Assembly: GCA_000720805.1 (NCBI GenBank)
Contig: JODI01000058.1
Span: forward strand, 1-64,000
DNA length: 64,000 bases
Direction: 5' to 3'
From: Streptomyces violaceoruber
Lineage (GTDB): Bacteria; Actinomycetota; Actinomycetes; Streptomycetales; Streptomycetaceae
Shown here: in pieces, positions 18,038-51,380 of the stretch
Layout: each line of letters begins with the position of its first letter
Position numbering within the stretch: the first letter of the stretch is position 1
The notes under the pieces: generated by a model
The model's database searches: none
Seen by the model: the letters and a program-made list of their open reading frames with translations, nothing else
What the model was told of the DNA's origin: nothing
Program-made: the position numbers and the translations under genes

Positions 18038-18062
18038 GACAACGTTTTCTTAACCGGTAAAG
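18038..18062. promoter_or_regulatory. Two adjacent LacI-type operator candidates
   Basis: GACAACGTTTTC (18038-18049) and CTTAACCGGTAAAG (18049-18062) are near-perfect inverted repeats with the central CG typical of LacI-family operators. They lie between the divergent lipoprotein and beta-mannosidase genes. The first shares the 11 bases CTGACAACGTT with the perfect palindrome upstream of the GH92 gene at 51369. The likely binder is the LacI protein encoded at 20507. Confidence 0.65.
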
Positions 18063-18128
18063 TCTCTATCTCGCCAACGATGCACGGTTGTTCTCCCCGT
18101 CTTGGGGTTGATCGGTTTAGGAGTGTGC

Positions 18129-20510
18129 ATGCTTCAGGCCACACCGCTCGCCGAGGGATGGACCCTGCGACACGGGAGCGACGCGCTCCCGGCCGCGGTG
18201 CCGGGCTGCGTGCACACCGATCTGCTGACCGCCGGAGTGATCCCGGATCCCTTTCTCGGGCGCGACGAGACAGAGGTCGCCTGGGTGGGGCGCCGGGACT
18301 GGACGTACGAGAGGGAGCTGCCGGCGGTCGACGGGCACGAGCAGATCGACCTGGTCTTCGACGGCCTCGACACCGTGGCGGAGGTTCTGCTCGACGGCGA
18401 ACTCCTGGGCCGGACGAGGAACATGCACCGCTCGTACCGCTTCGACGTGACCGGCCTCGGGGGGCGGCTGGCGGTGCGGTTCGTCTCCGCGTACGCCGAG
18501 GCGGAGGCCGTGCGCGGGAAGCTGGGCGAGCGGCCCGCCGCGTACACCGAGCCCTACCAGTACCTCCGCAAGATGGCCTGCTCCTTCGGCTGGGACTGGG
18601 GGCCGACCCTGGTGACGGCCGGGATCTGGCGGCCGGTGCGGCTGGAGCGCTGGTCGACGGCCCGGATCGCGCGGGTGCGGCCGCTGGTGACCGTCGAGGA
18701 CGGCCGGGGGCGGGTCGAGCTGCGGGTCGAGGTCGAGCGGTCCCGGGTGGAGGTCGCACTCGCCGTCGAGGCGACGGTCGGCGGGGTGCGGACGCGCGCG
18801 GAGATCGACGGGACGCGGGGGGTCGTACGCCTCTCGGTGCCGGACGTACGGCTGTGGTGGCCGCGTGGATACGGTGAACAGCCGCTGTACGACATCGAGT
18901 TGAAGTTGCTGCACGACGAACGTCCGCTGGATGTGTGGCGGCGGCGGATCGGCTTCCGGACCGTCGAGCTGGACCGGCGGTCCGACGCGCACGGCAGCGG
19001 ATTCACCTTCGTCGTCAACGGGGAGCGGATCTTCGCGCGCGGCGTGAACTGGATCCCGGACGACGTCTTCCCGTCCCGGATCACGCGCGAGCGGTACCGC
19101 GAGCGACTGCGCCAGGCGGCCGACGCGGGCGTGGACCTCGTGCGGGTGTGGGGCGGCGGGATCTACGAGAGCGAGGACTTCTACGACGCCTGCGACGAAC
19201 TCGGGCTGCTGGTCTGGCAGGACTTCCCGTTCGCCTGCGCGGCCTACCCGGAGGAGCAGCCGCTGCGCGGCGAGGTGGAGGCCGAGGCCCGCGAGAACGT
19301 CGTCCGGCTGATGCCGCACCCCTCGCTGGTGCTGTGGAACGGCAACAACGAGAACCTGTGGGGGTTCAGGGACTGGGGCTGGGAGGAGCGGCTGGCCCAG
19401 GACTCCTGGGGCGAGGGGTACTACCTGGGCGTACTGCCGCGGGTGGTGGCCGAGTTGGATCCGACGCGGCCGTATGCGGCGGGCAGTCCCTGGTCCGGGT
19501 CGTGGGAGCACCATCCGAACGATCCGGCGCACGGCACGCATCACTCCTGGGAGGTGTGGAACCGGGAGGACTACACGGCCTACCGCGCCGATGTGCCGCG
19601 TTTCGTGGCCGAGTTCGGCTGGCAGGCGCCACCCGCGTGGGCCACGCTGCGGCGGGCGCTCCCGGGAGAGGAGCTCGCGCCGGACTCCCCCGGCATGCTG
19701 CACCACCAGAAGGCCGACGACGGCAACGGCAAGCTGCGGCGGGGACTGGAACGCCATTTCGCCTTCCCCGAGGGGGACTTCGACCGCTGGCACTACCTCA
19801 CGCAGGTCAACCAGGCCCGTGCGGTCGCCGCCGGGATCGAGCACTGGCGGTCGCACTGGCCGGTGTGTGCGGGCACCGTCGTCTGGCAGCTCAACGACTG
19901 CTGGCCGGTGACCTCCTGGGCGGCGATCGACGGGGACGGCCGCGAGAAACCGCTCTACCACGAGCTGCGCCGGCTGTACGCGGACCGGCTGCTCACCCTT
20001 CAGGTGCGGGATCAGGGGCTGGTGTTGACCGCCGTGAACCAGTCGGCCGGGGTGTGGTCGGGCACGGTGACGCTGCGGCGGATGTCGGTCGAGGGTGTGG
20101 TCGTCGGTACGGCGAACGTGGCGGTCACGGCCGGGAGGCGGTCCGTGGCCGACGTCGCCGTGCCGCGGGAGCTGGAGCCGGGCGGTCCGAAGGAGTTCCT
20201 GGTCGCGGACGCGGACGGCCTGCGCGCGCTGCACTTCCCGGCGCCGGACCGCGATATCCCGTATCCCCGGCCGGAGTTCGACGTCGCGCCGGTGCCGGGC
20301 GGGATCGAGGTGACGGCCCGCACCCTCGTACGGGATCTGCTGCTCCAGGCGGACCGGCTGGACCCGGCCGCGAGGGCGGACCGGGGGCTGGTCACGCTGT
20401 TGCCCGGGGAACGCGTGACCATCGGGGTGCGCGGCTGGGAGCCCCGGGGCGATCAGGATGCGGCGGCCGCCGCCCGGTCGGCCCTGTACTGCGTGGAGCC
20501 CAGCCGATGA
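18129..20510 (+). CDS. Beta-mannosidase, GH2 family
   Basis: A 793-residue cytoplasmic glycoside hydrolase without signal peptide. The N-terminal jelly-roll (about 1-175) contains VPGCVHTDLLTAGVIPDPFLGRDE and the characteristic KMACSFGWDWGPTL, both typical of GH2 beta-mannosidases rather than beta-galactosidases. The TIM barrel carries the acid/base Glu408 in LWNGNNENLWG and the nucleophile Glu495 in VAEFGWQAPP. It hydrolyses terminal beta-mannosyl residues, such as Man-beta-1,4-GlcNAc or manno-oligosaccharides, after uptake. The ATG was chosen for AGGAG six bases upstream. Its stop overlaps the ATG of the LacI regulator by four bases, forming a coupled pair. Confidence 0.9.
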   Translation: MLQATPLAEGWTLRHGSDALPAAVPGCVHTDLLTAGVIPDPFLGRDETEVAWVGRRDWTYERELPAVDGHEQIDLVFDGLDTVAEVLLDGELLGRTRNMHRSYRFDVTGLGGRLAVRFVSAYAEAEAVRGKLGERPAAYTEPYQYLRKMACSFGWDWGPTLVTAGIWRPVRLERWSTARIARVRPLVTVEDGRGRVELRVEVERSRVEVALAVEATVGGVRTRAEIDGTRGVVRLSVPDVRLWWPRGYGEQPLYDIELKLLHDERPLDVWRRRIGFRTVELDRRSDAHGSGFTFVVNGERIFARGVNWIPDDVFPSRITRERYRERLRQAADAGVDLVRVWGGGIYESEDFYDACDELGLLVWQDFPFACAAYPEEQPLRGEVEAEARENVVRLMPHPSLVLWNGNNENLWGFRDWGWEERLAQDSWGEGYYLGVLPRVVAELDPTRPYAAGSPWSGSWEHHPNDPAHGTHHSWEVWNREDYTAYRADVPRFVAEFGWQAPPAWATLRRALPGEELAPDSPGMLHHQKADDGNGKLRRGLERHFAFPEGDFDRWHYLTQVNQARAVAAGIEHWRSHWPVCAGTVVWQLNDCWPVTSWAAIDGDGREKPLYHELRRLYADRLLTLQVRDQGLVLTAVNQSAGVWSGTVTLRRMSVEGVVVGTANVAVTAGRRSVADVAVPRELEPGGPKEFLVADADGLRALHFPAPDRDIPYPRPEFDVAPVPGGIEVTARTLVRDLLLQADRLDPAARADRGLVTLLPGERVTIGVRGWEPRGDQDAAAAARSALYCVEPSR

Positions 20511-21544
20511 CGGCCATCCCGGCCCCCCGCGTCACCATCAAGGACGTCGCCGCGCGCGCCGGTGTGTCCAAGGGGGCGGTGTCCCTCGCCTTCAACCACA
20601 AGCCTGGGCTGTCGGAGGCGACCCGGGAGCGGATCTTCGAGGCGGCGCGGGAGCTTGGCTGGGCACCGAACCTCACCGCCCGGACGCTGGCCGGTTCGCG
20701 GGTGGACGTGGTGGGGCTGGCGATCTGCCGGCCCGCCCGGCTGCTCGGGCTCGAACCCTTCTACATGGAGTTCATCTCCGGCGTGGAGAGCGTCCTGACC
20801 GAGCACTCCTGCTCCCTGCTGCTGCGGCTGGTGCGGACCGTCGAGGAGGAGGTGGCGCTCCAGGAGACGTGGTGGCGGGGGCGGCAGACCGGGGGGTCCA
20901 TCCTGGTGGACTTCCGCACGGACGATCCCCGGGTGGCGGCGGTCGAGCGGCTCGGAATGCCGGTGGTGGCGGTCGGGCATCCGTCGCTGACCGGCGCGCT
21001 CACCTCGGTGTGGACCGAGGACGCCACCGCCGTCACGGAGGCGGTGCGCTACCTCGCGGCGCTCGGGCACCGGCGGATCGCCCGGGTCGGGGGCGCGGCG
21101 GCCCTGGGGCACACCTCCATGCGGACCGCCGCCTTCGACCAGGCGGCCCGCGCGCTGGAGCTGGCGGGGGCCTGGCAGGTGGCCACGGACTACTCCGGGG
21201 AGGCGGGGGCGCGGGCGACGCGGTCCCTGCTGACGGCGGCGCCCGCGGACCGGCCGACCGCGATCGTGTACGACAACGACATCATGGCCGTGGCGGGGCT
21301 GTCGGTGGCCGCCGAGATGGGGCTGGGCGTGCCCGACGACGTCTCCCTGCTGGCCTGGGACGACTCCCAGCTGTGCCGGCTCACGCATCCGACGCTCTCG
21401 GCGATGAGCCATGACGTGCACGGGTTCGGGGCGGACGCGGCGCGGACGCTGTTCGGGGTGATCACGGGAGAGGGACCCGGGTCGCATCCGGTACCCACTC
21501 CCGTCCTGACTCCACGGGGCTCGACGGCTCCGCCGAAGATGTGA
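20507..21544 (+). CDS. LacI family transcriptional regulator
   Basis: A 345-residue repressor. The N-terminal helix-turn-helix reads VTIKDVAARAGVSKGAVSLAFNHKPGLSEATRERI (about 9-43), followed by the hinge helix LTARTLAGSRV. The periplasmic-binding-protein-like effector domain spans about 65-335, with LGHRRIARVGG, the effector-site region DRPTAIVYDNDIMAVAGLSVAAEMG and DDVSLLAWDDS. It is coupled to the beta-mannosidase by an ATGA overlap. It probably represses that gene, the divergent transporter and, by operator similarity, the GH92 gene at 51 kb; the inducer is likely a mannose-containing oligosaccharide. The operator link is an inference from matching sites only. Confidence 0.9.
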   Translation: MTAIPAPRVTIKDVAARAGVSKGAVSLAFNHKPGLSEATRERIFEAARELGWAPNLTARTLAGSRVDVVGLAICRPARLLGLEPFYMEFISGVESVLTEHSCSLLLRLVRTVEEEVALQETWWRGRQTGGSILVDFRTDDPRVAAVERLGMPVVAVGHPSLTGALTSVWTEDATAVTEAVRYLAALGHRRIARVGGAAALGHTSMRTAAFDQAARALELAGAWQVATDYSGEAGARATRSLLTAAPADRPTAIVYDNDIMAVAGLSVAAEMGLGVPDDVSLLAWDDSQLCRLTHPTLSAMSHDVHGFGADAARTLFGVITGEGPGSHPVPTPVLTPRGSTAPPKM

Positions 21545-21603
21545 CCTTCGCCGCTTGGAGCAGCAGGACTGTGCAGCTACGTTACCCACAAGTAGCATGG
21601 ATC

Positions 21604-21619
21604 CTGAGCGCGCGCTCAG
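21604..21619. promoter_or_regulatory. 16-bp palindrome upstream of fadA
   Basis: CTGAGCGCGCGCTCAG is a perfect palindrome 42 bases before the fadA start. It overlaps or follows a promoter-like stretch (GTTACCCACAAGTAGCAT). It is a candidate operator for a TetR-like fatty-acid regulator. Confidence 0.5.
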
Positions 21620-21661
21620 CGCATCGCAGCAGTGCCGTCCCGCATCTGGAGGAGAGCCATC

Positions 21662-22879
21662 GTGCCTCGTACCGTCAGGGACGTCGTCTTCGTCGACGGC
21701 GTCCGTACCCCGTTCGGCAAGGCGGGCCCGAAGGGCATCTACCACGAGACCCGCGCCGACGACCTCGTCGTGAAGGCGATCCGGGAGCTGCTGCGCCGCA
21801 ACCCCGGTCTCGACCCGAAGAAGATCGACGAGGTCGCCATCGCCGCGACCACGCAGATCGGCGACCAGGGCCTGACGCTGGGCCGCACGGCCGGCATCCT
21901 CGCCGGTCTCCCCCAGTCGGTCCCCGGCTACTCCATCGACCGCATGTGCGCGGGCGCCCTGACCGCCGTGACCACCACGGCCGGCTCCATCGCCTTCGGC
22001 GCGTACGACGCCGTCATCGCCGGTGGCGTGGAGCACATGGGCCGCCACCCGATGGGCGAGGGCGTGGACCCGAACCCGCGGTTCGTCTCCGAGAAGCTGG
22101 TCGACGAGTCCGCCCTGTTCATGGGCATGACCGCCGAGAACCTGCACGACAGGTACCCGCACATCACCAAGCAGCGCGCCGACGAGTACGCCGTGCGCTC
22201 GCAGGAGAAGGCCGCCAAGGCGTACGCCAACGGCAAGATCCAGGTCGATCTGGTCCCGATCTCCGTACGTCGTACCAACCCGGAGGCCGGCGAGACGGGC
22301 TGGGGCCTGGTCACCGCCGACGAGCCGATGCGCCCGGGCACCACCCTGGAGAACCTGGCCGGTCTGAAGACCCCGTTCCGGGTGCACGGCCGGGTCACCG
22401 CGGGTAACGCGGCCGGTCTGAACGACGGCGCCACCGCCTCGATCATCGCGAGCGAGGACTTCGCCCGCGAGCACGACCTGCCGGTGAAGATGCGCCTGGT
22501 CTCCTACGCCTTCGCGGGCGTCGAGCCGGAGGTCATGGGCTACGGCCCGATCCCGGCCACGGAGAAGGCGCTCGCCAAGGCGGGCCTGTCGATCGAGGAC
22601 ATCAACCTCTTCGAGATCAACGAGGCCTTCGCCGTCCAGGTCCTGGCCTTCCTCGACCACTACGGCATCGCGGACGACGACGAGCGCGTCAACCAGTACG
22701 GCGGCGCGATCGCCTTCGGTCACCCGCTGGCCTCCTCCGGCGTCCGTCTGATGACGCAGCTGGCCCGCCAGTTCGAGGAGCAGCCGAATGTCCGCTACGG
22801 CCTGACCACGATGTGCGTCGGCTTCGGCATGGGCGCCACCGTCATCTGGGAGAACCCGCACTTCGAGGGGGACAAGTGA
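21662..22879 (+). CDS. fadA: Acetyl-CoA acyltransferase (thiolase)
   Basis: A 405-residue degradative thiolase that releases acetyl-CoA from 3-ketoacyl-CoA at the end of each beta-oxidation round. The nucleophilic Cys lies in SIDRMCAGAL (about residue 98). The NEAF motif (INEAFAVQ), the catalytic His in GGAIAFGHPLASSG, and the second Cys in LTTMCVGFGMG complete the active site. The GTG start was chosen over an upstream in-frame ATG because GGAGGAG lies about eight bases before it. The stop overlaps the fadB GTG by four bases (GTGA), so the two subunits of the multienzyme complex are coupled. Confidence 0.93.
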   Translation: MPRTVRDVVFVDGVRTPFGKAGPKGIYHETRADDLVVKAIRELLRRNPGLDPKKIDEVAIAATTQIGDQGLTLGRTAGILAGLPQSVPGYSIDRMCAGALTAVTTTAGSIAFGAYDAVIAGGVEHMGRHPMGEGVDPNPRFVSEKLVDESALFMGMTAENLHDRYPHITKQRADEYAVRSQEKAAKAYANGKIQVDLVPISVRRTNPEAGETGWGLVTADEPMRPGTTLENLAGLKTPFRVHGRVTAGNAAGLNDGATASIIASEDFAREHDLPVKMRLVSYAFAGVEPEVMGYGPIPATEKALAKAGLSIEDINLFEINEAFAVQVLAFLDHYGIADDDERVNQYGGAIAFGHPLASSGVRLMTQLARQFEEQPNVRYGLTTMCVGFGMGATVIWENPHFEGDK

Positions 22880-25005
22880 GCACCACCACCGAGCTGTTGA
22901 AGGGTGCGTCCGACCTCTTCCCCGACGAGGTCGTCACCCAGGCACACGTACGCCACCTGGACCTGCCGTTCGGCGCCGGGCGCTTCGCCCTGATCACGCT
23001 GGACAACGGCCTCGACCACACCAAGCCGACCACCTTCGGCCCGGCCTCGCTGGCGAACCTCAACACCGCCATCGACCAGGTCGAGAAGGAGGCCTCGGCC
23101 GGCGAGATCGTCGGTGTCGGTGTCACCGGCAAGCCGTTCATCTTCGCGGTCGGCGCCGACCTCAAGGGCGTCGAACTGCTGAAGGAGCACAAGGACGCGC
23201 TCGCCATCGGCAAGGGCGGCCACGAGGTCTTCAAGCGTCTCGCGGGCATCGCGGTCCCGACCTTCGCCTACTACAACGGCGCGGCGATGGGCGGTGGCGT
23301 CGAGGTCGGTCTGCACTGCCAGTACCGCACGGTGTCGAGCGCGATCGCCGCCTTCTCGCTGCCCGAGGTCTTCCTCGGCCTGGTCCCGGGCTGGGGCGGC
23401 TGCACGCTGCTGCCGAACCTGATCGGTGCCGCCAAGGCCATCTCGGTGATCATCGACAACTCCCTCAACCAGAACAAGCAGCTCAAGGGCGAGCAGGTCT
23501 ACGACCTCGGGATCGCCGACGCGATCTTCGAGGGCGCCGACTTCCTGGAGCAGTCGCTGCTGTGGACGGCCGCCGTCCTCAAGGGCGAGATCGTCATCGA
23601 CCGCCCGGTGATCGACCGCGGTGAGGTCTGGGACCTGGCCGTCGCCAAGGGCCGCTCCATCGCGGACAGCAAGGTGCACGGCGCGGCCCCGGCCGCCTAC
23701 CGCGCCCTGGACATCATCGCCGCCGCCAAGAACGGCGACCTGCAGCAGGGCTACGACGCCGAGGACCAGGCGCTCGCCGACCTGATCATGGGCGGTGAAC
23801 TGCGCGCCGGCATCTACGCGTTCAACCTGGTGCAGAAGCGCGGCAAGCGTCCGGCCGGCGCGCCCGACAAGAACCTCGCGCGTCCGGTCACCAAGGTGGG
23901 CGTCGTGGGCGCGGGCCTGATGGCCTCGCAGCTGGCGCTGCTGTTCCTGCGCCGCCTGGAGGTGCCGGTCGTGCTGACCGACATCGACCAGGAGCGCGTC
24001 GACAAGGGCGTGGGCTACGTCCACGCCGAGATCGACAAGCTCCTCGGCAAGGGCCGGATCAACCAGGACAAGGCCAACCGCCTCAAGGCGCTGGTGACCG
24101 GTGTGCTGGACAAGGCCGAGGGCTTCTCCGACGCGGACTTCATCATCGAGGCCGTGTTCGAGGAGATCGGCGTCAAGCAGCAGGTGTTCGCGGAGGTCGA
24201 GGCGGTCGCCCCGGCGCACGCGATCCTCGCCACCAACACCTCGTCGCTCTCGGTCTCCGAGATGGCGTCGAAGCTGAAGAACCCCGAGCGGGTCGTGGGC
24301 TTCCACTTCTTCAACCCGGTCGCCGTGCTGCCGCTCCTGGAGATCGTCCGCGGCGAGCAGACCGACGACGCCTCGCTGGCCACGGCGTTCGCCGTCGCCA
24401 AGAAGCTGAAGAAGACCGCGGTCCTCGTGAAGGACGCCCCGGCGTTCGTCGTCAACCGCATCCTCACCCGCTTCATGGGCGAGATCCAGAACGTCATCGA
24501 CGAGGGCACCCCGGTCGAGGTCGCCGAGAAGGCCGTCGAGCCGCTCGGTCTGCCGATGTCCCCGCTGGTCCTGCTGGAGCTGGTCGGTCCGGCGATCGGT
24601 CTGCACGTCTCCGAGACCCTCAACCGGGCCTTCCCGGACCGCTTCACGGTCTCCGAGAACCTCGCGGCCGTAGTCAAGGCGGGCAAGCGCGGCTTCTACG
24701 TGTACGACAGCGGCAAGCCCGAGCTGGACCCGGAGGTCGCCGCGCTGCTCAAGCAGGGCGACACCGTCCTGACCGAGGAGCAGGTCCGTGAGCGCGTCCT
24801 GGACGCGGTGGCGCAGGAGATCGGGCTGATGCTCGACGAGGGCGTCGTCGCCGAGGCCCAGGACATCGACCTCTGCCTGATCACCGGTGCGGGCTGGCCC
24901 TTCCACCTGGGCGGCATCACGCCGTACCTGGACCGCGAGGGTGTCTCCGAGCGTGTGAACGGCAAGAAGTTCCTGGCTCCGGGCGTGGCGAGCGTCCCGG
25001 CGTAA
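22876..25005 (+). CDS. fadB: Fatty acid oxidation complex alpha subunit (enoyl-CoA hydratase / 3-hydroxyacyl-CoA dehydrogenase)
   Basis: A 709-residue bifunctional enzyme. The hydratase domain (about 1-300) shows FIFAVGADLKGVELL and NGAAMGGGVEVGLHC plus SLPEVFLGLVPGWGG with the catalytic Glu. The dehydrogenase half begins with the NAD motif VGVVGAGLMASQLALLFL (about 338-355). It includes NTSSLSVSEMASKLKNPERVVGFHFFNPV with the catalytic His, then two C-terminal helical domains ending in GITPYLDREG. It hydrates enoyl-CoA and oxidises the product to the 3-ketoacyl-CoA used by FadA. Codon bias is exceptionally uniform, suggesting high expression. It is followed by a terminator-like hairpin. Confidence 0.93.
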   Translation: MSTTTELLKGASDLFPDEVVTQAHVRHLDLPFGAGRFALITLDNGLDHTKPTTFGPASLANLNTAIDQVEKEASAGEIVGVGVTGKPFIFAVGADLKGVELLKEHKDALAIGKGGHEVFKRLAGIAVPTFAYYNGAAMGGGVEVGLHCQYRTVSSAIAAFSLPEVFLGLVPGWGGCTLLPNLIGAAKAISVIIDNSLNQNKQLKGEQVYDLGIADAIFEGADFLEQSLLWTAAVLKGEIVIDRPVIDRGEVWDLAVAKGRSIADSKVHGAAPAAYRALDIIAAAKNGDLQQGYDAEDQALADLIMGGELRAGIYAFNLVQKRGKRPAGAPDKNLARPVTKVGVVGAGLMASQLALLFLRRLEVPVVLTDIDQERVDKGVGYVHAEIDKLLGKGRINQDKANRLKALVTGVLDKAEGFSDADFIIEAVFEEIGVKQQVFAEVEAVAPAHAILATNTSSLSVSEMASKLKNPERVVGFHFFNPVAVLPLLEIVRGEQTDDASLATAFAVAKKLKKTAVLVKDAPAFVVNRILTRFMGEIQNVIDEGTPVEVAEKAVEPLGLPMSPLVLLELVGPAIGLHVSETLNRAFPDRFTVSENLAAVVKAGKRGFYVYDSGKPELDPEVAALLKQGDTVLTEEQVRERVLDAVAQEIGLMLDEGVVAEAQDIDLCLITGAGWPFHLGGITPYLDREGVSERVNGKKFLAPGVASVPA

Positions 25006-25026
25006 CGCGATACCCCTGAGGGGGGT

Positions 25027-25065
25027 GGGGCGCAGGATAACGATCCTTGCGTTCCGCCCCCCTTT
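25027..25065 (+). terminator. Interrupted hairpin and short T run after fadB
   Basis: Outer stem GGGGCG / CGCCCC and inner stem AGGAT / ATCCT, with small internal loops, then CCTTT. It begins 22 bases after the fadB stop. It is probably the end of the fadAB transcript. Confidence 0.5.
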
Positions 25066-25165
25066 CGCATGTCGCTACGGATAGGATCCTCACACAATCC
25101 GACCACTTGTTTACATGGCAGTGACGGTTGCGCTGACGGTTTCGGCGGTTTCGGCCCATGCGCTG

Positions 25166-25233
25166 ACCGGCCGACGGCCGGTTCGGCCGGCCAGTTGAAC
25201 CGGCCGGTTGAACCGTTCAGTTCGACCGCTCAG
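25166..25233. promoter_or_regulatory. Inverted repeats and three 13-bp direct repeats in CBM3-gene promoter
   Basis: ACCGGCCG/CGGCCGGT at 25166-25182 and the 12-bp palindrome AACCGGCCGGTT at 25198-25209 are followed or overlapped by three head-to-tail 13-bp units starting TTGAACCG, TTGAACCG and TTCGACCG (25195-25233). They end 22 bases before the GTG start. The iteron-like spacing suggests cooperative binding of an unknown regulator. Confidence 0.5.
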
Positions 25234-25255
25234 TGCCGTGCGAAGGAGTTTCACC

Positions 25256-28149: not shown

Positions 28150-28186
28150 GGCCCCGTACACGTGAGGCTCCGTACACGTGAGGCTC
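28139..28186 (+). repeat. Three 16-bp tandem repeats spanning the deacetylase stop codon
   Basis: CGTACACGTGAGGCCC, then CGTACACGTGAGGCTC twice. The first copy encodes the last codons and TGA of the deacetylase; the other two are non-coding. It looks like a recent local duplication, and each unit contains the palindrome ACACGTG-like CACGTG core. Confidence 0.85.
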
Positions 28187-28198
28187 CGGCAACGACGA

Positions 28199-28229
28199 GG
28201 GGGGCGGCCGCGTGGCCGCCCCCCTCTTT
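28199..28229. terminator. Strong terminator between convergent deacetylase and GT2 genes
   Basis: Perfect 11-bp stem GGGGGGCGGCC / GGCCGCCCCCC with a GCGT loop followed by TCTTTTTCTT. This is a classical intrinsic terminator with a real T-tract for plus-strand transcription; the stem also works for the opposing operon. Confidence 0.85.
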
Positions 28230-28267
28230 TTCTTGCTCACCGAGCCCCGTGGAGGCCCGTCTCGGAC

Positions 28268-36868: not shown

Positions 36869-36884
36869 CCCTTCACCACCATTT

Positions 36885-40532: not shown

Positions 40533-40572
40533 GGGGGGTCCCCCCGGTCGAGCGAAGCCGAGATTGGGGGAG
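40533..40572. repeat. Streptomyces interspersed GC-rich repeat
   Basis: A stretch reading GGTCCCCCCGGTCGAGCGA followed by AGCCGAGATTGGGGGAG can fold on itself (GGGGG/CCCCC). A related copy sits in the dxs 3' coding end (40723-40752), and similar elements recur in Streptomyces genomes from memory. It lies in the 5' leader of the permease gene. Confidence 0.55.
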
Positions 40573-40600
40573 CGTATGCCCCGGCGCGGGCGGATTCACG

Positions 40601-40650
40601 CGAACGGGCCGGTAAGACCACTGTGAGGAGCGGTCCCACCGGCCCGTTCG
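40601..40650 (-). terminator. Terminator hairpin downstream of dxs
   Basis: Perfect 13-bp stem CGAACGGGCCGGT / ACCGGCCCGTTCG separated by a 24-base loop, ending 20 bases from the dxs stop codon. Confidence 0.65.
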
Positions 40651-40670
40651 GCGGGTCGGTCGCGGGTGGG

Positions 40671-42635: not shown

Positions 42636-42777
42636 CCGTGCCTCCTTGCAGTAGAGCTGATCGAGCTGTTGCCGGGCGTGTCGAGTCTAATGTTCCGGCT
42701 TTGTGCCCGAAGCCCGGGCACTGCGTCATTGGTCACGCGATCGGCTGTACCCAGGATGTGCCGTCCCTACGACACGA

Positions 42778-42810
42778 CTGTGCCCGGCACCTGAAAGGCG
42801 CCGGGCACAG
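42778..42810 (-). terminator. Terminator of the xylFGH operon
   Basis: Perfect 11-bp stem CTGTGCCCGGC / GCCGGGCACAG with an 11-base loop, 14 bases downstream of the xylH stop. Confidence 0.75.
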
Positions 42811-42823
42811 TGACTGGGGACAA

Positions 42824-44116: not shown

Positions 44117-44904
44117 TTGGAAACCTCCCCGTTCGTGCTGGTCGTGCGGGCCGCACGACGGGTCACGGCGTTCTCGGTGGCGCCGGTGATGGCGGAGATG
44201 ATCTCCTCCTGCGAGGTCGTCTTGACCTCGAAGACGCCGTTGTTGCGGCCCAGGCGCAGGACGGCGACCTTGTCGGCCACGGCCTTGACGTCGGCCATGT
44301 TGTGGCTGATGAGGATCACCGCGTGGCCGCGCTCGCGCAGCCGCTCGACGAGGTCGAGGACCTGCGCGGTCTGCTCGACACCGAGGGCGGCGGTGGGCTC
44401 GTCCAGGATGACCAGCTTGGGCTCGCCGAGCATGGAGCGGGCGATGGCCACGGTCTGGCGCTGGCCGCCGGAGAGCGAGGCGATCGGGATCCGGACGCTG
44501 GGGATGCGGATGGAGAGCGTGCGCAGCAGTTCCTGCGAGCGCCGTTCCATCTCGACCTCGTCGAGCACGCCCCACTTCCTCAGCTCACGGCCGAGGAAGA
44601 GGTTGCCGACGACGTCGATGTTGTCGCACAGCGCGAGGTCCTGGTAGACGGTCGCGATGCCCAGGGCCTGGGCGTCGTGCGGCCGGTTGATCTGGACGGA
44701 CCTGCCGTCCCATTCGATGACACCCTCATCGATGGGGTGCACGCCGGCGATCGTCTTCACCAGCGTGGACTTTCCGGCGCCGTTGTCGCCCACCAGGGCG
44801 ACCACTTCACCGGCGTGGACCTCAAGCTCTACGTCGGTGAGCGCCTGAACGGCACCGAACCGCTTGGAGACCCCGCGCAACGCCAGCACGGGCGTAGCGG
44901 ACAC
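44113..44904 (-). CDS. xylG: Xylose ABC transporter ATP-binding protein
   Basis: A 263-residue protein with a single ATPase domain, half the length of RbsA-type CUT2 ATPases. Walker A is LVGDNGAGKSTLVKTIAGVHP, the signature LSGGQRQTVAIARSML and Walker B KLVILDEPTAALG. The H-loop is LISHNMADVK. The GTG at 44904 was chosen because AAGGAG lies nine bases upstream; an ATG three codons earlier abuts that sequence. Being single-domain, it presumably works as a homodimer, like other streptomycete CUT2 ATPases. It is downstream of xylF across a 200-base gap with a hairpin, and is translationally coupled to xylH. Confidence 0.9.
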   Translation of the reverse strand: MSATPVLALRGVSKRFGAVQALTDVELEVHAGEVVALVGDNGAGKSTLVKTIAGVHPIDEGVIEWDGRSVQINRPHDAQALGIATVYQDLALCDNIDVVGNLFLGRELRKWGVLDEVEMERRSQELLRTLSIRIPSVRIPIASLSGGQRQTVAIARSMLGEPKLVILDEPTAALGVEQTAQVLDLVERLRERGHAVILISHNMADVKAVADKVAVLRLGRNNGVFEVKTTSQEEIISAITGATENAVTRRAARTTSTNGEVSK

Positions 44905-45066
44905 GTGAACCATCTCCTTCGCCGCCTGACCCGGCGGGAGGTTGTGCAGAAAGAAGTCTGGGATGTTCCGTCCGGCGCCCCGCGTCGAGCTTGCGGGGCT
45001 GTGTGATGCGCGGGACGCCGGAGGAGCGTGGGAAGCAGTCATGTCCCGTACGGGAGAACCCCGGTG

Positions 45067-45088
45067 GGGAATCCGCGGTCGGATTCCC
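45067..45088 (-). promoter_or_regulatory. Intercistronic hairpin between xylF and xylG
   Basis: Perfect 9-bp stem GGGAATCCG / CGGATTCCC with loop CGGT, 24 bases after the xylF stop. It probably stabilises the xylF message or partly terminates it, giving more binding protein than ATPase. Confidence 0.6.
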
Positions 45089-45112
45089 TCACGACGCGGG
45101 ACGTGGCACTGC

Positions 45113-46225
45113 TTACTTGAGACCGGCCTGGTCGCAGGCGGCCTTGTACTTGGCCGTGCAGATCTCGGCGGAGGTGTAGAAGCCCTCCTTGATGACCGTG
45201 TCGTTGATGTTGTCCTTGGTCAGCGAGACGACCGGAACCAGCAGCGACGGGACGTCCTTCGCGCTGTCGCTGGAGACCTTGTCCTTGGCGACGGAGTCCA
45301 GGCTCTCACCCTTGGCCAGCCTGACGGCCATCTCGCCGGCGACGGACGCCTCCGTCGGGTACGACTTGAACACGCTCATGTACTGGTCGCCGGTGAGGAT
45401 CCGCTGGACGGCGGCGAGTTCGGCGTCCTGGCCGGTGACGGGAACCTTGAGGTTGGCGGCCGCGAGGGCGGTGATGATACCGCCGGCCATGCCGTCGTTC
45501 GCGGAGTAGACGCCCGCGATGTTCTTGCCGCCGATCGCGGAGATCGCCGCCTCCATCTCGGAGTTGGCGTTGTCCGGCGACCACTCCTTGGTGTCGTACT
45601 CCTTGGCGACGGTCACCTTGCCGTCGAGGACGGAGTGGGCACCCTTCTTGAACTGGGCGGCGTTCGGGTCGGTCACCGAACCGTTGACCATGACGATCTT
45701 GGCGGACTTGGTGGCCTTGCTGCCCAGAGCCTTCAGCAGGGCGTTGGCCTGGGTCCTGCCGACCTCTTCGTTGTCGAACGTGGTGTAGGCGCTGATCGGG
45801 CCTTCGGCGAGGCGGTCGTAGGCGACGACCTTGATGCCCTGGTCCACGGCCTTCTGGACCGAGTTCTTGATGGCCTTGGCGTCCACCGCGTCCACGATGA
45901 GCACGTCCACCTTGTTGGTGATCATCGTGTCGACCTGCTGCGACTGCAGACTCGCGTCCTGCCGCGCGTTGTTGTACAGGAACTGGGCCTTGTTGTTCGT
46001 GAGCTCCTTGATCTTCTTCTCGATCAGGGGCTTGTCGAACTTCTCGTACCGCGCGGTCTTGTTCTCCGGAAGGAGCAGACCCACCTTGATGTTGTCGCCC
46101 TTGGAAGCGGAGCCGGAGGACTCGGCCTTGTCGCCGGATTCCTTGGCACTGCCACAAGCGGCAAGCGAAACGGCCATCGCACCCGCGGCAACAGCAACAG
46201 CGGCACGACGCATACGCGTGTTCAC
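45113..46225 (-). CDS. xylF: Xylose-binding lipoprotein
   Basis: A 370-residue periplasmic-binding-protein-like lipoprotein. The signal MRRAAVAVAAGAMAVSLAAC ends in the lipid-modified Cys, followed by a Ser/Gly/Lys linker. The mature part begins IKVGLLLPENKTARYEKFDKPLIEKKI, and includes VDVLIVDAVDAKAIKNSVQKAVDQGIKVVAYDR, VYSANDGMAGGII and VTGQDAELAAVQRI, all diagnostic for the xylose/ribose group. The GTG is preceded by GGGAGG at nine bases. It heads the xylFGH operon and lies 121 bases downstream of rok7B7, with its own promoter presumably in that gap. Confidence 0.92.
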   Translation of the reverse strand: MNTRMRRAAVAVAAGAMAVSLAACGSAKESGDKAESSGSASKGDNIKVGLLLPENKTARYEKFDKPLIEKKIKELTNNKAQFLYNNARQDASLQSQQVDTMITNKVDVLIVDAVDAKAIKNSVQKAVDQGIKVVAYDRLAEGPISAYTTFDNEEVGRTQANALLKALGSKATKSAKIVMVNGSVTDPNAAQFKKGAHSVLDGKVTVAKEYDTKEWSPDNANSEMEAAISAIGGKNIAGVYSANDGMAGGIITALAAANLKVPVTGQDAELAAVQRILTGDQYMSVFKSYPTEASVAGEMAVRLAKGESLDSVAKDKVSSDSAKDVPSLLVPVVSLTKDNINDTVIKEGFYTSAEICTAKYKAACDQAGLK

Positions 46226-46346
46226 TTCAGAAACCTCCCTGACGAGGCCGCGTCGTTGCGGCCGAGGTGGCTGGAAGTCAACTCGGCCACACGTGCGACG
46301 TCAAGAAGTAAATCCTTAACGGGTTGGCAACGGTGCCATCCGTTCT

Positions 46347-47591
46347 CTAAGTGAAGGCGGGTGCGGCCGTGGGCAGCGTCCCGTCCAAAAGGGTCGAATC
46401 GCCCATCTCGCTGAGCGCGAGAGCGAGCGCACCGAGCACCTCCGCCCGGCCGCCGAGGGCCCCGGGCAGAACGGTGAGCCGACGTGCCGCGCTGGGGATC
46501 GCATAGCGGCCGACGGACTCCCTGATCGGCCCGAGCACCAGCTCACCCGCCTCGGCGAGATCACCGCCGAGGACCACGCGGCTCGGGTTCAGCAGGTTGC
46601 AGAGATTGGCGACTCCACTGCCGATGTGGCGGCCGACGTCGGCGATCACCCGACGGCAACCGGGGTCCCCGTCCCGCGCCAGCCGTACGACGCCTTCCAT
46701 GGTCAGATCCGTGCCGTGACTGGACTGGAGCAGGGGCAGCACATAGCGCGCGGCCGTGAAGGTCTCCAGGCAGCCCCGGTTTCCGCAGCGGCAGACGGGG
46801 CCGGATTCGTCGAGCGTGATGTGTCCGATCTCTCCCGCGGTGCCGCCCGGGCCCCGGTAGATCTGCCCGTTGATCACCAGACCCGCGCCGACACCGCTCG
46901 CGACCTTGATGTACGCCAGGTCACGCACCCCCCGGCCGCTGCCCCAGACCAGCTCACCGAGGGCGCCGAGGTTGGCGTCGTTGTCCACGTGCACGGGTAC
47001 GCCGAGCCGCCCGTGCAGCTCCTCGGCGGGCCGGGTGCCGGTCCAGCCGGGCAGGATGGCGGTCGAGCCCAGGGTCCCGGTCTCGACGTCGATCGGGCCG
47101 GGGACGCCGAGGCCCACCCCGGCGATCTTGGCGCGGTCCACTCCGGTGGCCTCGATCAACCGGCTGACCAGCTGTTCCGCCCGGTCGAAACCCTGGGTCG
47201 AGGAGGCGTCCACATCGAGCGGCTCGGACTCCTCGGCCAGCACCTGGTGGGCCAGGTTGCCGACCGCCACGCGCAGATGGGTGTGCCCGAAGTCGACACC
47301 GATCACGATGCCGGCGTCCCCGCTCAGGGAGACGCTACGGGCCCTGCGGCCACCGGCCGAGGTGGGCGTGACCTCGACGGTTCCGCCGTCCTTGAGTTCG
47401 CGCACGATGTTGGAGACGGTCGCCGCGGACAGGCCCGTCGTCCGCGCGATCTCCGCCTGCGTGAGCGACCCGGCCAGCCGCACGGCCCGTACGACCCGCT
47501 CGAGGTTGGCTCGGTGCAGCGACGACTGCGACCCCGGAGTCTCCACGACGACCTCCTGCGCGCGGGACCGCTTCAATGAGGCCCCGTCCAT
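46347..47591 (-). CDS. rok7B7: ROK family transcriptional regulator Rok7B7
   Basis: A 414-residue regulator. The N-terminal MarR-like helix-turn-helix reads LTQAEIARTTGLSAATVSNIVRELKDGG (about 43-70). The ROK sugar-kinase-like domain begins IVIGVDFGHTHLRVAVG and includes GVPGPID and the zinc-binding CRCGNRGCLE cluster (about 266-275). The ATG was preferred over an in-frame TTG six bases upstream. In S. coelicolor the orthologue (SCO6008) controls xylFGH, glucose repression and antibiotic production, and the same synteny with xylFGH and ngcEFG is seen here. Identification rests on this context plus motifs. Confidence 0.9.
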   Translation of the reverse strand: MDGASLKRSRAQEVVVETPGSQSSLHRANLERVVRAVRLAGSLTQAEIARTTGLSAATVSNIVRELKDGGTVEVTPTSAGGRRARSVSLSGDAGIVIGVDFGHTHLRVAVGNLAHQVLAEESEPLDVDASSTQGFDRAEQLVSRLIEATGVDRAKIAGVGLGVPGPIDVETGTLGSTAILPGWTGTRPAEELHGRLGVPVHVDNDANLGALGELVWGSGRGVRDLAYIKVASGVGAGLVINGQIYRGPGGTAGEIGHITLDESGPVCRCGNRGCLETFTAARYVLPLLQSSHGTDLTMEGVVRLARDGDPGCRRVIADVGRHIGSGVANLCNLLNPSRVVLGGDLAEAGELVLGPIRESVGRYAIPSAARRLTVLPGALGGRAEVLGALALALSEMGDSTLLDGTLPTAAPAFT

Positions 47592-47677
47592 GTCCAACTA
47601 GTGAACTCTAAGCTGAGCCGTTCGGGCCGCCTCCCGTCAAGAGGTTGAACCGCATCCGGGTCCTTGGACATGACCGC

Positions 47678-47710
47678 GGACGCCGCCCCCGGGAGCCGGG
47701 AGCGGCGTTC
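47678..47710 (-). terminator. Terminator after ngcEFG
   Basis: Inverted repeat ACGCCGC / GCGGCGT with inner CCCGG / CCGGG pairing, 20 bases downstream of the ngcG stop. Confidence 0.6.
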
Positions 47711-47729
47711 GCGCAGTGGGGTCGGGCCG

Positions 47730-48653
47730 TTACTTCAGCGCGCCCGCCGTGAGGCCCTGCACCACCTGCCGCTGGAAGACGATGTACGCCGCGAGCACCG
47801 GCAGCATGGCCATCACCAGGCCGGCGAACAGCCCGGACCAGTCGCCCTTGTAGCCCTGGCTGGCCGCGAGCTGGACCAGGCCCTGGGTCAGGACGCGCTT
47901 GTCCGGGTCGGTGTTGAGCACCGTCGGCAGCATGTACTGGTTCCACTGTCCCAGGAAGTTGAAGATCCCCACACTGATCAGGCCGGGCTTGGCCATCGGC
48001 AGCATGATCTGGAAGAACGTCCGGGTGTGTGAGGCACCGTCCACGAACGCCGCCTCCGCGACCGAGGTCGGCAGCGTGCGGAAGAACGCGGTCAGGAAGA
48101 AGACCGTGAAGGGCAGCGAGTAGGCGATGTAGACCAGGATCAGCCCGTGGATGGTGTTGAGCAGGCCCATGTTGTTCACGACGTAGAACAACGGGACCAG
48201 CGCCAGCATGATCGGGAAACTCATGCCGCCGACGAACAGGTAGTAGATGAACCGGTTGCCCGGGAAGTCGAAGCGGGCCAGCACGTAGGCCGCCATGGAG
48301 CCGAGCACCAGCGTGCCGATGAGCGAGCCGCCCACCACCAGGATGGTGTTCAGGAAGTAGTCGCTCATGTTGGCGTCGGTCCAGGCCCGCGCCCAGTTGT
48401 CGAAGTGCAGCTTGTCCGGCAGCGCCCAGGGCGAACTGAAGATGGAGTTGTCGTCCTTGAAGGACGTCATCACCGCCCACAGCAGCGGCATGACGACCAG
48501 GATCGCCCAGATGACCAGGATCCCGTGCGAGAAGACGTTGAGGGTGGTGCCCTCCTTCTTCTCCTTCGGGGGCGGACCGCCCCGGGAGTCGGCCTTGGCC
48601 ACGGGCACACCGGGCACGGCCGGTACGGGGGCGGGAGGCTCGGTTGTCTTCAT
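47730..48653 (-). CDS. ngcG: Chitooligosaccharide/GlcNAc ABC transporter permease
   Basis: A 307-residue CUT1 permease. A 35-residue Pro/Lys-rich N-terminal extension precedes six helices. The EAA loop reads SVAEAAFVDGASHTRTFFQIMLPMAKPG (about 198-225), and the protein ends with the common LTAGALK. It is three bases downstream of ngcF, so translation is probably coupled. In S. coelicolor NgcEFG (SCO6005-6007) handles N-acetylglucosamine and chitooligosaccharides; the gene order and neighbour rok7B7 support orthology. There is no ATPase in the operon, consistent with use of MsiK. Confidence 0.85.
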   Translation of the reverse strand: MKTTEPPAPVPAVPGVPVAKADSRGGPPPKEKKEGTTLNVFSHGILVIWAILVVMPLLWAVMTSFKDDNSIFSSPWALPDKLHFDNWARAWTDANMSDYFLNTILVVGGSLIGTLVLGSMAAYVLARFDFPGNRFIYYLFVGGMSFPIMLALVPLFYVVNNMGLLNTIHGLILVYIAYSLPFTVFFLTAFFRTLPTSVAEAAFVDGASHTRTFFQIMLPMAKPGLISVGIFNFLGQWNQYMLPTVLNTDPDKRVLTQGLVQLAASQGYKGDWSGLFAGLVMAMLPVLAAYIVFQRQVVQGLTAGALK

Positions 48654-48656
48654 CTG

Positions 48657-49583
48657 TCAGTACTCCAGCCGCTCGCGCCGTCCGAGCCGCATCACGAGGC
48701 CGGCGAAGGCCAGCGTGACGACGAGCAGGGCGACGCCGATGGTGGTCGCGTAGGCGGCCTGCCCGTCCCGGAACGCCTTCTGGTACACGTACAGGACCAT
48801 GACGGTGGTCGAGTAGTCGGGGCCGCCCGGACCGGTCGTCATGATCTGTACGACCGCGAACGACTCGGCGCCCAGGGCGAGGATGCCCATGTACACCCAG
48901 CCGGACTGCACGGTGTCCCACAGCAGCGGCAGGGTGATGCGGAAGAACGTGGTGGCCCGGCCGGCCCCGTCGAGCAGTGCGGCCTCGTACAGGTCCGCCG
49001 GGATGGAGGCCATACCGGCGGAGAACAGGACCACGAAGAACCCGACCGTGGACCACACCAGCACCGCCATCACGCACCACAGGGCCAGGCTCGGGTCGCC
49101 CAGCCACAGCGGCCGGACGCTGTCGAGCCCGATGCCGCGCAGCAGCGAGTTGATGGCGCCGCTGTCCGGGTTGTACGCGAAAGCGAACAGCAGAGCGACG
49201 ATCGCGATCGAGAGCACCTGCGGGAAGAAGTAGACGATCTTGTAGAAGCTGGAGCCCCGGACACCGGAGATGACCGGGCCGCCCCGCCTCCTGCGTCCGC
49301 CCACATTGATCATGAAGGCGAAGAACAGGGCCAGACTGATCGTCACGAGCGGCAGCACGAGCGCGAACATCAAGCTGTGCTGCAAGGACTTCCAGAAGAT
49401 CTCGTCGTCCAGCATCCTCCGGTAATTGTCCAGGCCGACCATCTTGAATTCGGGGCTCAGGCCGGTCCAGTCCGTGAACGAGTAGTAGATGGACTGGATG
49501 AACGGCCATACCACGAAGAGCGCGTACAGTCCCAGGGGCAGCGCCAGAAACCCCACGATGAACCGGTACTTGCCGTGCTGCAT
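48657..49583 (-). CDS. ngcF: Chitooligosaccharide/GlcNAc ABC transporter permease
   Basis: A 308-residue CUT1 permease. The first helix is FIVGFLALPLGLYALFVVWPF and the extracytoplasmic motif YYSFTDWTGLSPEFKMVGLDNYRRML follows. The EAA loop reads PADLYEAALLDGAGRATTFFRITLPLLWD (about 203-231). A basic loop GGRRRRGGP lies between helices 2 and 3. It ends with the ATPase-proximal sequence LVMRLGRRERLEY. It forms a heterodimer with the NgcG-type subunit encoded immediately downstream and receives substrate from NgcE. Confidence 0.85.
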   Translation of the reverse strand: MQHGKYRFIVGFLALPLGLYALFVVWPFIQSIYYSFTDWTGLSPEFKMVGLDNYRRMLDDEIFWKSLQHSLMFALVLPLVTISLALFFAFMINVGGRRRRGGPVISGVRGSSFYKIVYFFPQVLSIAIVALLFAFAYNPDSGAINSLLRGIGLDSVRPLWLGDPSLALWCVMAVLVWSTVGFFVVLFSAGMASIPADLYEAALLDGAGRATTFFRITLPLLWDTVQSGWVYMGILALGAESFAVVQIMTTGPGGPDYSTTVMVLYVYQKAFRDGQAAYATTIGVALLVVTLAFAGLVMRLGRRERLEY

Positions 49584-49599
49584 CGCTTCTCCGGTCCGT

Positions 49600-51054
49600 T
49601 TACTGGTGCTTGTAGTGCTTGATCGAACTGTCCTTGGCGGTTTCGTCCGCGTATGCCTGGATCTTCTTGATGGTCTCGGCCGGAGTGAGGCGGCCGGCCA
49701 TCATCTCGCCGAGGCCGGAGACGCCGATCTTCTCCTTCTGGAGCTGCACGTACCAGTCCTGCATCCGCGGGTTCAGCACGTTGCTGCCGGCCTTCTCCAG
49801 CGCCGCGACGCCGGACTTCAGGCCCGGGGTGAGGGTGATGCCCTCGGTGCCACCGTTGAACGCGGTGAGCGACTTGACCTTGCTGGTGAAGTTCTTCGAG
49901 GACGCCTCGCTGAGCATGATGCGCAGCTGCTCCATGCCGCCCTCGGCGTTCTTCGCCTTGGCCGGGACGATGAAGGGCTCGCCGCCGGAGGCCCAGATGG
50001 TGCCGAAGGGCATCTTGTCGGAGGAGTCGATGCCGGTGGGCGCGGAGACCGCCAGGTCGAAGTCCTTCGGGATGACGTTCGCCGACTCGTTCTCCACCCA
50101 GGAGCCGTTCGGGATGAACAGCGCCTTGCCCTTGGCCCAGGCGGTCTGCGACTGGATGTGGTCCAGGCCGGGGGTGCCCTTGAGGATGTAGCCCTTCTTG
50201 TAGAGCTCGTAGTAGGCCTCGAAACACGCCTTGACCGCGGGGTGCTTCCAGGCGTTCGGCTCCAGGTTGTCGATGGCGTCGAGGACCTCGACACCGCCGA
50301 CCTTGCCGATCATCGGGTAGAGCGAGAAGGGGAGGTAGTACGGGTACTTGCCCGCGTACGTCCAGCCCGCCATGCCCTTCTTCTTGGCCTTCTCGCACAC
50401 CGCGAGCATCTGGTCCCAGGTCTCGGGATAGGTGGCGTCGAGCGAGTCCAGCGCCTTCTGCGAGTACCAGACGCCGTACACCGTGTAGGCGTAGTACATG
50501 ATCCAGACCGGGTCGCCGTCGAGCTGGCCCATCTCGACGATGCCGGGGCGCAGGGTGTCGCGGACCTTCTTCTTCGGGTCGTCGTAGGACGGGGCGTCCA
50601 GCAGCGGGGTGAGGTCGGTGAGCTGCTTCTTTGCGGCCAGGACGCCCATGTCCATCTGCTCGGCGCCGGAGTTGTCGATCAGGTCCGGCGGGGTGCCCTG
50701 GTTGAAGCGGGGCTGGAGGGTGGACTGGATCTTCTGGGTGGCGGAGAACTTCACCTTGACCTTGGGGAAGTCCTTCTCGTAGATCTTCACGGCGTCCTCG
50801 GCGTACTCCTTGCCGAAGCCGCCGTCGAACAGGACGAACTCCATCCCCGCCGTCTCGTTCACGGCCAGCGGGTTCTTGGCGGTCTTCTTGCCCGCCTTGG
50901 CCTTGTCCCCGCTGTCGTCGCCGCCGCTGCTGGCGCACGCCGACAGGAAGCTCATCGTGGGGACGGAGATCAGGCCCAGTGCTGCGGACCGCTTGATCAG
51001 ATCGCGGCGGCCGACGCCACCGGTGCCGTTGTTCTCGGCGGAAGTGGATCCCAT
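49600..51054 (-). CDS. ngcE: Chitooligosaccharide/GlcNAc-binding lipoprotein
   Basis: A 484-residue solute-binding protein. The ATG was preferred to an in-frame TTG two codons upstream because GAGGA is well spaced. The signal GRRDLIKRSAALGLISVPTMSFLSAC contains a twin-arginine pair and a lipobox with Cys40, as in NgcE, suggesting Tat export. The mature domain includes MEFVLFDGGFGKEYAEDAVKIYEKDFPKVKVKFSATQ and aromatic sugar contacts such as VWIMYYAYTVYGVWY and PYYLPFSLYP. It is divergent from the GH92 gene with 352 bases between starts; this region contains a DasR-like box and a perfect 12-bp palindrome. Confidence 0.88.
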   Translation of the reverse strand: MGSTSAENNGTGGVGRRDLIKRSAALGLISVPTMSFLSACASSGGDDSGDKAKAGKKTAKNPLAVNETAGMEFVLFDGGFGKEYAEDAVKIYEKDFPKVKVKFSATQKIQSTLQPRFNQGTPPDLIDNSGAEQMDMGVLAAKKQLTDLTPLLDAPSYDDPKKKVRDTLRPGIVEMGQLDGDPVWIMYYAYTVYGVWYSQKALDSLDATYPETWDQMLAVCEKAKKKGMAGWTYAGKYPYYLPFSLYPMIGKVGGVEVLDAIDNLEPNAWKHPAVKACFEAYYELYKKGYILKGTPGLDHIQSQTAWAKGKALFIPNGSWVENESANVIPKDFDLAVSAPTGIDSSDKMPFGTIWASGGEPFIVPAKAKNAEGGMEQLRIMLSEASSKNFTSKVKSLTAFNGGTEGITLTPGLKSGVAALEKAGSNVLNPRMQDWYVQLQKEKIGVSGLGEMMAGRLTPAETIKKIQAYADETAKDSSIKHYKHQ

Positions 51055-51163
51055 GCTCAAGTCCTCGCCTTCTCCAGGACTCAGGCGGTGTACCGGATCC
51101 TCCCGGGCACCGCGGTCAGGTCAAGCAGGGTGGTGCTGGAAGTGCGCATCGTGTGAATTGCCG

Positions 51164-51179
51164 ACAGGTATAGTCCACT
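51164..51179. promoter_or_regulatory. DasR-responsive-element-like site upstream of ngcE
   Basis: ACAGGTATAGTCCACT matches 13 of 16 positions of the dre consensus ACTGGTCTAGACCACT recalled from the literature. It lies 110 bases upstream of ngcE, suitable for repression by DasR, the GntR-type GlcNAc regulator. Binding is a prediction. Confidence 0.55.
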
Positions 51180-51368
51180 TCTTGCCAGCGGAGCAAGATC
51201 GAATGCAAGGTTGGCCATGGGTCTTTTCCGAGTTGAGACCTCCCGGAAATATGAGCGGCCTGTGGGCCTCATGCCGGAAAAATCCCTGACATAGGCCCCG
51301 AATGCCACACCAACACCCTTGACATCACTGCGGACTTGAGTCACTACTGATCCTTGCGCACAGTTTCT

Positions 51369-51380
51369 GACAACGTTGTC
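51369..51380. promoter_or_regulatory. Perfect palindromic operator upstream of the GH92 gene
   Basis: GACAACGTTGTC is an exact 12-bp palindrome with central CG, 26 bases before the GH92 start and next to its ribosome-binding site. A TTGACA hexamer lies at 51319-51324. The same CTGACAACGTT core occurs in the beta-mannosidase/transporter promoter, so one LacI-type repressor may serve both. Confidence 0.65.

Follow-up and report, generated by a model that had tools for sequence, protein, structure and literature searches.

A conserved palindrome before a Streptomyces GH92 alpha-mannosidase gene is a predicted operator of a distant LacI-family regulator

The stretch of Streptomyces violaceoruber DNA analysed here (the window: positions 1 to 64,000 of contig JODI01000058.1, assembly GCA_000720805.1) encodes two predicted mannosidases, a glycoside hydrolase family 2 (GH2) beta-mannosidase and a GH92 alpha-mannosidase, and the motif CTGACAACGTT lies upstream of both genes. 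This raises the question of which regulator reads the motif. The original prediction was that the two sites are a shared operator of the LacI-family protein encoded next to the beta-mannosidase (the window's own LacI gene, here LacI-A) and that the two loci form a single N-glycan pathway. The comparisons described below suggest instead that the GH92 palindrome is the operator of a second LacI-family protein (LacI-B), encoded far from the window on contig C1, which is predicted to repress dispersed alpha-mannan genes until a mannose-type inducer appears; we give this reading a rough probability of 0.82.

Both copies of the motif are real, given that it has exactly two matches in the window (18036-18046 and 51367-51377) and none in 100 shuffled sequences. 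The GH92 copy is part of a 12-base perfect palindrome, GACAACGTTGTC, at 51369-51380, whereas the copy between the solute-binding protein gene and the GH2 gene, GACAACGTTTTC at 18038-18049, is one mismatch away from the palindrome. The gene contents of the two loci also are as originally described, with the LacI gene directly after GH2 and an NgcE-type transporter divergent from GH92. The 12-mer upstream of GH92 is invariant in all 30 aligned Streptomyces loci, in agreement with the view that it is a true LacI-type operator in an alpha-mannoside gene set. In the source genome, the exact 12-mer occurs five times (36 places with at most one mismatch, compared to 15 for the reversed control), once at GH92 and once at the LacI-B gene, but the remaining three copies have no plausible target (one is within a peptidase gene on C25, one within a predicted open reading frame on C150, and one, on C33, has no called gene start nearby). 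The second GH92 gene of this genome has the variant TGGCAACGTTGTCA. In addition, TGACAACGTTGTTA is found in front of a gene for a PA14-containing GH2 protein of the source genome (L017:8001-8012), ending approximately 11 bp before the called start.

Across Streptomyces, the exact 13-mer TGACAACGTTGTC is present in 54 of the 61 genomes compared, whereas the reversed control yields one match in one genome, so that a chance origin of the motif can be rejected. Among the matches listed, we counted 139 distinct sites in 50 of the 54 matching genomes, with the second-strand rows of perfect palindromes dropped. Of these, 49 are located in front of LacI-B, 40 in front of the GH92 ortholog and 50 elsewhere, in loci that were annotated individually. 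Almost half of the latter (24, including one via an apparent operon and two second sites) belong to further GH92 genes, which brings the GH92 total to 64 of 139. Another 17 sites are associated with other mannan- or sugar-related genes or with an uncharacterised CBM32-bearing family: four with GH76 genes (in L164, the site is beside another glycosidase, with the GH76 gene 476 bp away), seven with the CBM32-bearing family, two with phosphomannose isomerase genes (L175:4008-5483 and L179:2595-4076), and one each with genes for a GH2 protein, an MFS sugar transporter, a GH1/ROK pair and a GH18 protein. Many of the GH92, GH76 and CBM32-family assignments in L157-L183 are based on blastp matches to Pfam-checked members, and that of L169 on a 37% match only. 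In the locus with the apparent operon, a 547-residue protein without a confident family assignment (L116:2340-3983) is encoded upstream of GH92 under the operator.

Enrichment of the operator at alpha-mannan enzymes becomes apparent when an unrelated glycoside hydrolase family is used for comparison. In the same 10 genomes, an exact site is found within 3 kb upstream of the catalytic domain in 25 of 30 GH92 genes compared to one of 71 GH18 matches, and two further GH92 genes have a one-mismatch site. The GH92 ortholog itself (E-value of 1e-150 or better) is present in 46 of the 61 genomes; among the matches listed, the exact 13-mer is found at this gene in 40 of 44 GH92-bearing genomes, and in G045 the 12-mer is present but the 13-mer is not, which places this genome outside the set of 42 with an exact GH92 site. 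All seven genomes that lack an exact site also lack a GH92 ortholog, with the 61 genomes counted irrespective of kinship. Conversely, G009 lacks a GH92 ortholog and yet has retained the palindrome, which is flanked there by NgcE and a GH67 gene (L159:4001).

The candidate regulator, LacI-B, is encoded divergently from a ROK kinase gene and contains an N-terminal helix-turn-helix domain (PF00356) and a periplasmic-binding-like effector domain (PF13377), as is typical of the LacI family. Palindromic operators and autoregulation are common in this family. LacI-B is found in 59 of the 61 genomes with 75-100% identity, and its helix-turn-helix, RPTMKDVAARAGVGLKTVSRVVN, is nearly constant in the copies compared. 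The palindrome, with its central CG, is located 66-310 bp upstream of LacI-B in all 49 genomes among the matches listed and in all four further genomes examined by sequence, that is, in 53 of 59; in G015, G031, G034 and G055 the sites were checked at LacI-B only, except that those of G034 and G055 were also checked at GH92. Furthermore, it is present at 80 of 80 named close relatives of LacI-B, all of which are from Streptomyces; this figure leans to close kin because it covers the 80 top-ranking of at least 537 relatives. This recurrence of the palindrome before the LacI-B gene as well as before alpha-mannan enzyme genes suggests that LacI-B rather than LacI-A is the likely switch of GH92. 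The LacI-B gene of S. coelicolor presumably is SCO1078, adjacent to SCO1077. The latter is listed as a probable glucokinase in the available portion of PMC12727718.

Several observations weigh against this reading. Nine of the 139 sites have no sensible target, including two on one phage-like contig and one within a peptidase gene; three of the 30 GH92 genes (L282, L293 and L304) have, relative to the catalytic domain, neither an exact site within 3 kb nor a one-mismatch site within 1.5 kb; and the exact site is present at only three of seven GH76 genes. The GH18 palindrome is inside the coding region, about 20 nucleotides after the likely start codon. In G048, G036 and G008, the GH92 match is N-terminally shorter and has no exact site, and no operator was found in the sequence stretches around the G048 and G036 matches, with the G008 stretch outside this check. 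Six genomes keep LacI-B with a near-unchanged helix-turn-helix and have the exact operator nowhere, either upstream of LacI-B or elsewhere, so that LacI-B may do something else there. Outside the genus, two of eight LacI-B homologs have the site; the GVGLK helix is present in both, and also in L335, one of the six homologs that lack the site. Finally, the adjacent ROK protein is nearest to the NCBIfam models for N-acetylmannosamine kinase and glucokinase, with scores below their cut-offs.

Two side observations pertain to these exceptional genomes. In all six operator-less LacI-B genomes (L184-L189), AGACAATCACGTCT is present upstream. The phage-like contig, which encodes a portal protein, belongs to G050 (genome 82% complete; LacI-B not detected) and carries two perfect palindromes (L163:773 and 4434).

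At 18036, the look-alike site is most probably that of LacI-A and part of a separate beta-1,4-manno-oligosaccharide locus. Orthologs of LacI-A (at least 86% identity) were identified in 10 of the 61 genomes; matches of any kind at an E-value of 1e-60 or better are found in 45 genomes, with those beyond the ten orthologs being 41-74% identical. The site has the same position in all nine loci with a preserved GH2 start (in one of these, G017-C160, the middle part of GH2 is seemingly missing), with the sequence TGACAACGTTTTC in three and TGACAGCGCTTTC in six, and CTGACARCGYTTTC is found at the same place in all eight close orthologous loci and in G017-C160. The tenth genome, G040, has a partial GH2 match and no site. 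The core of the LacI-A site is AGCGCT in six of the nine loci, whereas the GH92 core remains AACGTT in all four AGCGCT-type genomes that have GH92 (G014, G017, G026 and G033); both sites contain AACGTT in three sampled genomes (G000, G001 and G007). Operators of one regulator should change together, and because these two do not, the GH92 site is probably not that of LacI-A. Thus, conservation in other Streptomyces does not bear out the notion that the two sites act as one operator.

Among the alternatives, the one that survives best is cross-talk, whereby LacI-B would bind the 18036 site as well in G000, G001 and G007, so that alpha- and beta-mannoside genes would respond partly together there. 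The 18036 site is a single mismatch away from the palindrome, and a GH76 gene of the source genome has a comparably diverged site, TGACAACGTTTCCA; however, the mismatch disrupts a half-site for which the compared loci show no variation at GH92 and LacI-B, and the sister species have two more changes at the LacI-A site, which makes such cross-talk doubtful. More improbable still, a different LacI paralog with the same DNA specificity might be the main repressor of GH92, with the site at LacI-B being a target of that protein rather than a sign of autoregulation. Streptomycetaceae have an average of 32 LacI regulators per genome according to the available part of PMC4052901, and the six genomes with LacI-B but without operators fit this possibility, but 53 of 59 genomes have the palindrome at the LacI-B gene, and a scan up to 2.5 kb from the site in the 46 loci that hold the remaining sites detected no LacI-type helix-turn-helix apart from that of LacI-B. 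Finally, the arrangement originally envisaged, in which LacI-A binds both sites and coordinates the beta-mannosidase, the importer and GH92 as one N-glycan regulon, can be rejected as very improbable: although the motif is shared by the two sites and a single contig carries both loci, separated by about 23-36 kb, in G001, G007, G033, G014 and G026, a LacI-A ortholog at the above threshold is missing from 34 of the 42 genomes with an exact GH92 site (eight have one), the two sites diverge separately, the recognition helices differ (SKGAVSL in LacI-A and GLKTVSR in LacI-B), and the importer of the LacI-A locus points to a different substrate.

The latter point concerns the solute-binding protein that is encoded divergently from GH2. 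Its closest structures are those of BlMnBP1 with mannotriose and mannopentaose (6i5w and 6i5v; 214 bits), a high-affinity binder of beta-manno-oligosaccharides (PMC8262883, available in part), and the nearest solved relatives of the GH2 protein are beta-mannosidases. The locus therefore resembles a beta-1,4-manno-oligosaccharide system, on the beta-mannan side rather than that of the N-glycan core, which speaks against the two loci being one N-glycan pathway. In LacI-A genomes, TGACAGCGCTTTC is found at further loci as well; a comparison of 13 of these with the window's contig yielded matches to the contig for three (L362, L367 and L368; near 56 kb) and none for the other ten, and we accordingly claim no wider LacI-A regulon. 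In L032-L035, where GH2 is 71-75% identical, no LacI-A-type site is present in the approximately 200 bp before GH2; look-alike sites are located about 1.4 kb upstream of GH2, seemingly within coding sequence. Between the LacI-A site and GH2, the conserved AACCGGTAAAG and GATCGGTTTAGG-like (ACCGGT-type) motifs are found at window positions 18052-18062 and 18110-18121, and these are perhaps the site of another regulator.

With LacI-B as the regulator of GH92, a mechanism can be outlined. LacI-B would bind the operator and repress transcription, and a mannose-type ligand would release it. The operator is located just downstream of a conserved TTGACA...TACT block, presumably the GH92 promoter (a consensus scan detected no sigma-70 match before GH92), and hence the repressor would block transcription early; since the same palindrome precedes its own gene, LacI-B likely represses itself as well. 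Induction would raise the levels of GH92, GH76 and further mannose-removing enzymes that act on fungal mannan, mannoprotein or high-mannose glycans, after which the divergently encoded ROK protein would phosphorylate mannose and the phosphomannose isomerase, which is beside the operator in two genomes, would pass it to glycolysis.

The GH92 promoter region appears to receive a second input. The 16-base DasR responsive element is present without mismatches at -243 from GH92 in the window and is exact in 29 of the 30 GH92 loci, and in S. coelicolor DasR binds the SCO6004-SCO6005 region (PMC6167110 and PMC4398421, both available in part). Together with the NgcE family match, which is above the cut-off, the element identifies the divergent genes as an NgcEFG chitobiose transporter locus. 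In the available text of PMC6167110, NgcE is described as unresponsive to mannose. The presence of the DasR element suggests that ngcEFG likely answers to N-acetylglucosamine (GlcNAc) via DasR and GH92 to LacI-B, so that the two regulators would act on the two divergent genes. Thus, the link between mannose and chitobiose that the original prediction drew has some basis at the GH92-ngcE promoter, through DasR and presumably LacI-B, but not through LacI-A. The broader proposal, a genus-wide, scattered alpha-mannan regulon of the LacI-B/ROK-kinase pair that includes undescribed CBM32-bearing mannan-acting enzymes and in which LacI-B and DasR jointly read mannose and GlcNAc at the GH92-ngcE promoter, is tentative, and we place it slightly below even odds.

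The CBM32-bearing family is found under the operator seven times (L124:4009-7161, L111:815-4072, L157, L168, L170, L174 and L183). These proteins, each approximately 1050 residues long, have CBM32-like domains and an N-terminus of the RR type that may direct export, and searches of the first 640 residues against Pfam, NCBIfam and PDB profiles retrieved no enzyme family; they are candidates for a new mannan enzyme. The GH18 gene with a palindrome (L115:3100-4089) matches the solved endo-beta-N-acetylglucosaminidase 4ac1, a type of enzyme that an N-glycan utilization regulon would be expected to include, and has orthologs in five of 199 genomes.

Table 1. Coordinates of features of the two mannosidase loci in the 64,000-nucleotide window.
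Feature	Position	Strand	Evidence and remarks
ABC permease 2, importer of the LacI-A locus	14803..15720 (start approximate)	-	PF00528
ABC permease 1, importer of the LacI-A locus	15714..16664 (start approximate)	-	PF00528
Solute-binding protein, divergent from GH2	16664..17983	-	PF01547
Putative LacI-A operator CTGACAACGTTTTC	18036..18049	+	Between the solute-binding protein and GH2 genes
GH2 exo-beta-mannosidase (predicted)	18129..20510	+	PF22666, PF00703; closest PDB entry 5n6u, a beta-mannosidase
LacI-A, LacI-family regulator	20507..21544	+	PF00356, PF13377
ROK regulator, Rok7B7 counterpart by position	46347..47597	-	PF00480 and MarR-type helix-turn-helix; gene order as in PMC6167110 (available in part)
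NgcG-type permease	47730..48653	-	PF00528; position as in SCO6005-6007
NgcF-type permease	48657..49583	-	PF00528; position as in SCO6005-6007
NgcE, GlcNAc/chitobiose binding protein	49600..51060	-	TIGR03851, 621 bits (cut-off 399.65)
DasR responsive element (reverse complement of AGTGGACTATACCTGT)	51164..51179	.	GH92-ngcE intergenic region
Promoter-like block TTGACA ... TACT	51319..51350	+	Conserved in the GH92 alignment, just upstream of the operator
Predicted GH92 operator CTGACAACGTTGTC	51367..51380	+	Core palindrome 51369-51380; ends 26 bp before the GH92 start codon
GH92 alpha-mannosidase (predicted)	51407..55240	+	PF07971, PF17678, PF00754; SCO6004 counterpart by position

The predicted GH92 protein contains an F5/8C (CBM32-like) domain and, as judged by eye, a signal-peptide-like N-terminus, and its closest PDB entry is 7nsn (1490 bits). 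Downstream of this gene, on the opposite strand, the window encodes a lytic polysaccharide monooxygenase (AA10-type, PF03067) with a CBM2 domain (56377-57483).

The present analysis puts forward a regulator of the Streptomyces alpha-mannosidases, along with a DNA code, and ties together genes that are scattered over the genome, at the same time correcting an attractive yet unsupported pairing of two neighbouring mannosidase loci. The 12-base code also serves as a finder that points to the conserved CBM32-bearing family as a likely mannan enzyme, and to phosphomannose isomerase and a sugar transporter. Given that fungal mannoproteins and N-glycans have mannose and GlcNAc as their two sugars, the question arises whether soil Streptomyces sense fungal mannoprotein as a joint signal of the two. 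Judging by titles and abstracts in the open-licence literature, which leaves most subscription journals outside, we found no description of the alpha-mannan regulon proposed here or of a regulator of Streptomyces alpha-mannosidases. The accessible part of PMC4052901 describes five LacI groups for mannose and mannosides, and a prediction of the LacI-B regulon may already exist within these groups.

The closest known counterpart of the GH92 locus is the S. coelicolor region SCO6004-SCO6011, which comprises a putative alpha-1,2-mannosidase, ngcEFG, rok7B7 and the xylose operon (PMC6167110), the same kinds of genes in the same order as in the window. This region has the same 16-base DasR element, at -244 from SCO6004 compared to -243 in the window, with a single enriched probe at SCO6004-SCO6005 (PMC4398421). 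The available excerpts of these two papers mention no LacI operator at SCO6004, and the palindrome and its gene set appear to be a new addition to this region; S. coelicolor itself is outside the set of genomes compared here. In the case of the LacI-A locus, the closest known counterpart is the Bifidobacterium uptake system with BlMnBP1, which captures beta-manno-oligosaccharides (PMC8262883); by comparison, the Streptomyces locus couples the importer to a GH2 beta-mannosidase and LacI-A, and its substrate is a prediction. Bacterial utilization of N-glycans is exemplified by Streptococcus pneumoniae (PMC5215778, available in part), a paper in which GH92 is named 32 times; the comparison made here covers N-glycan use as such. 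Finally, BxlR, CebR and RbsR of Streptomyces (PMC12772271, available in part) are repressors of the LacI type, like LacI-B. Unlike those of the three repressors, however, the predicted targets of LacI-B appear as single enzyme genes scattered genome-wide rather than as one neighbouring operon.

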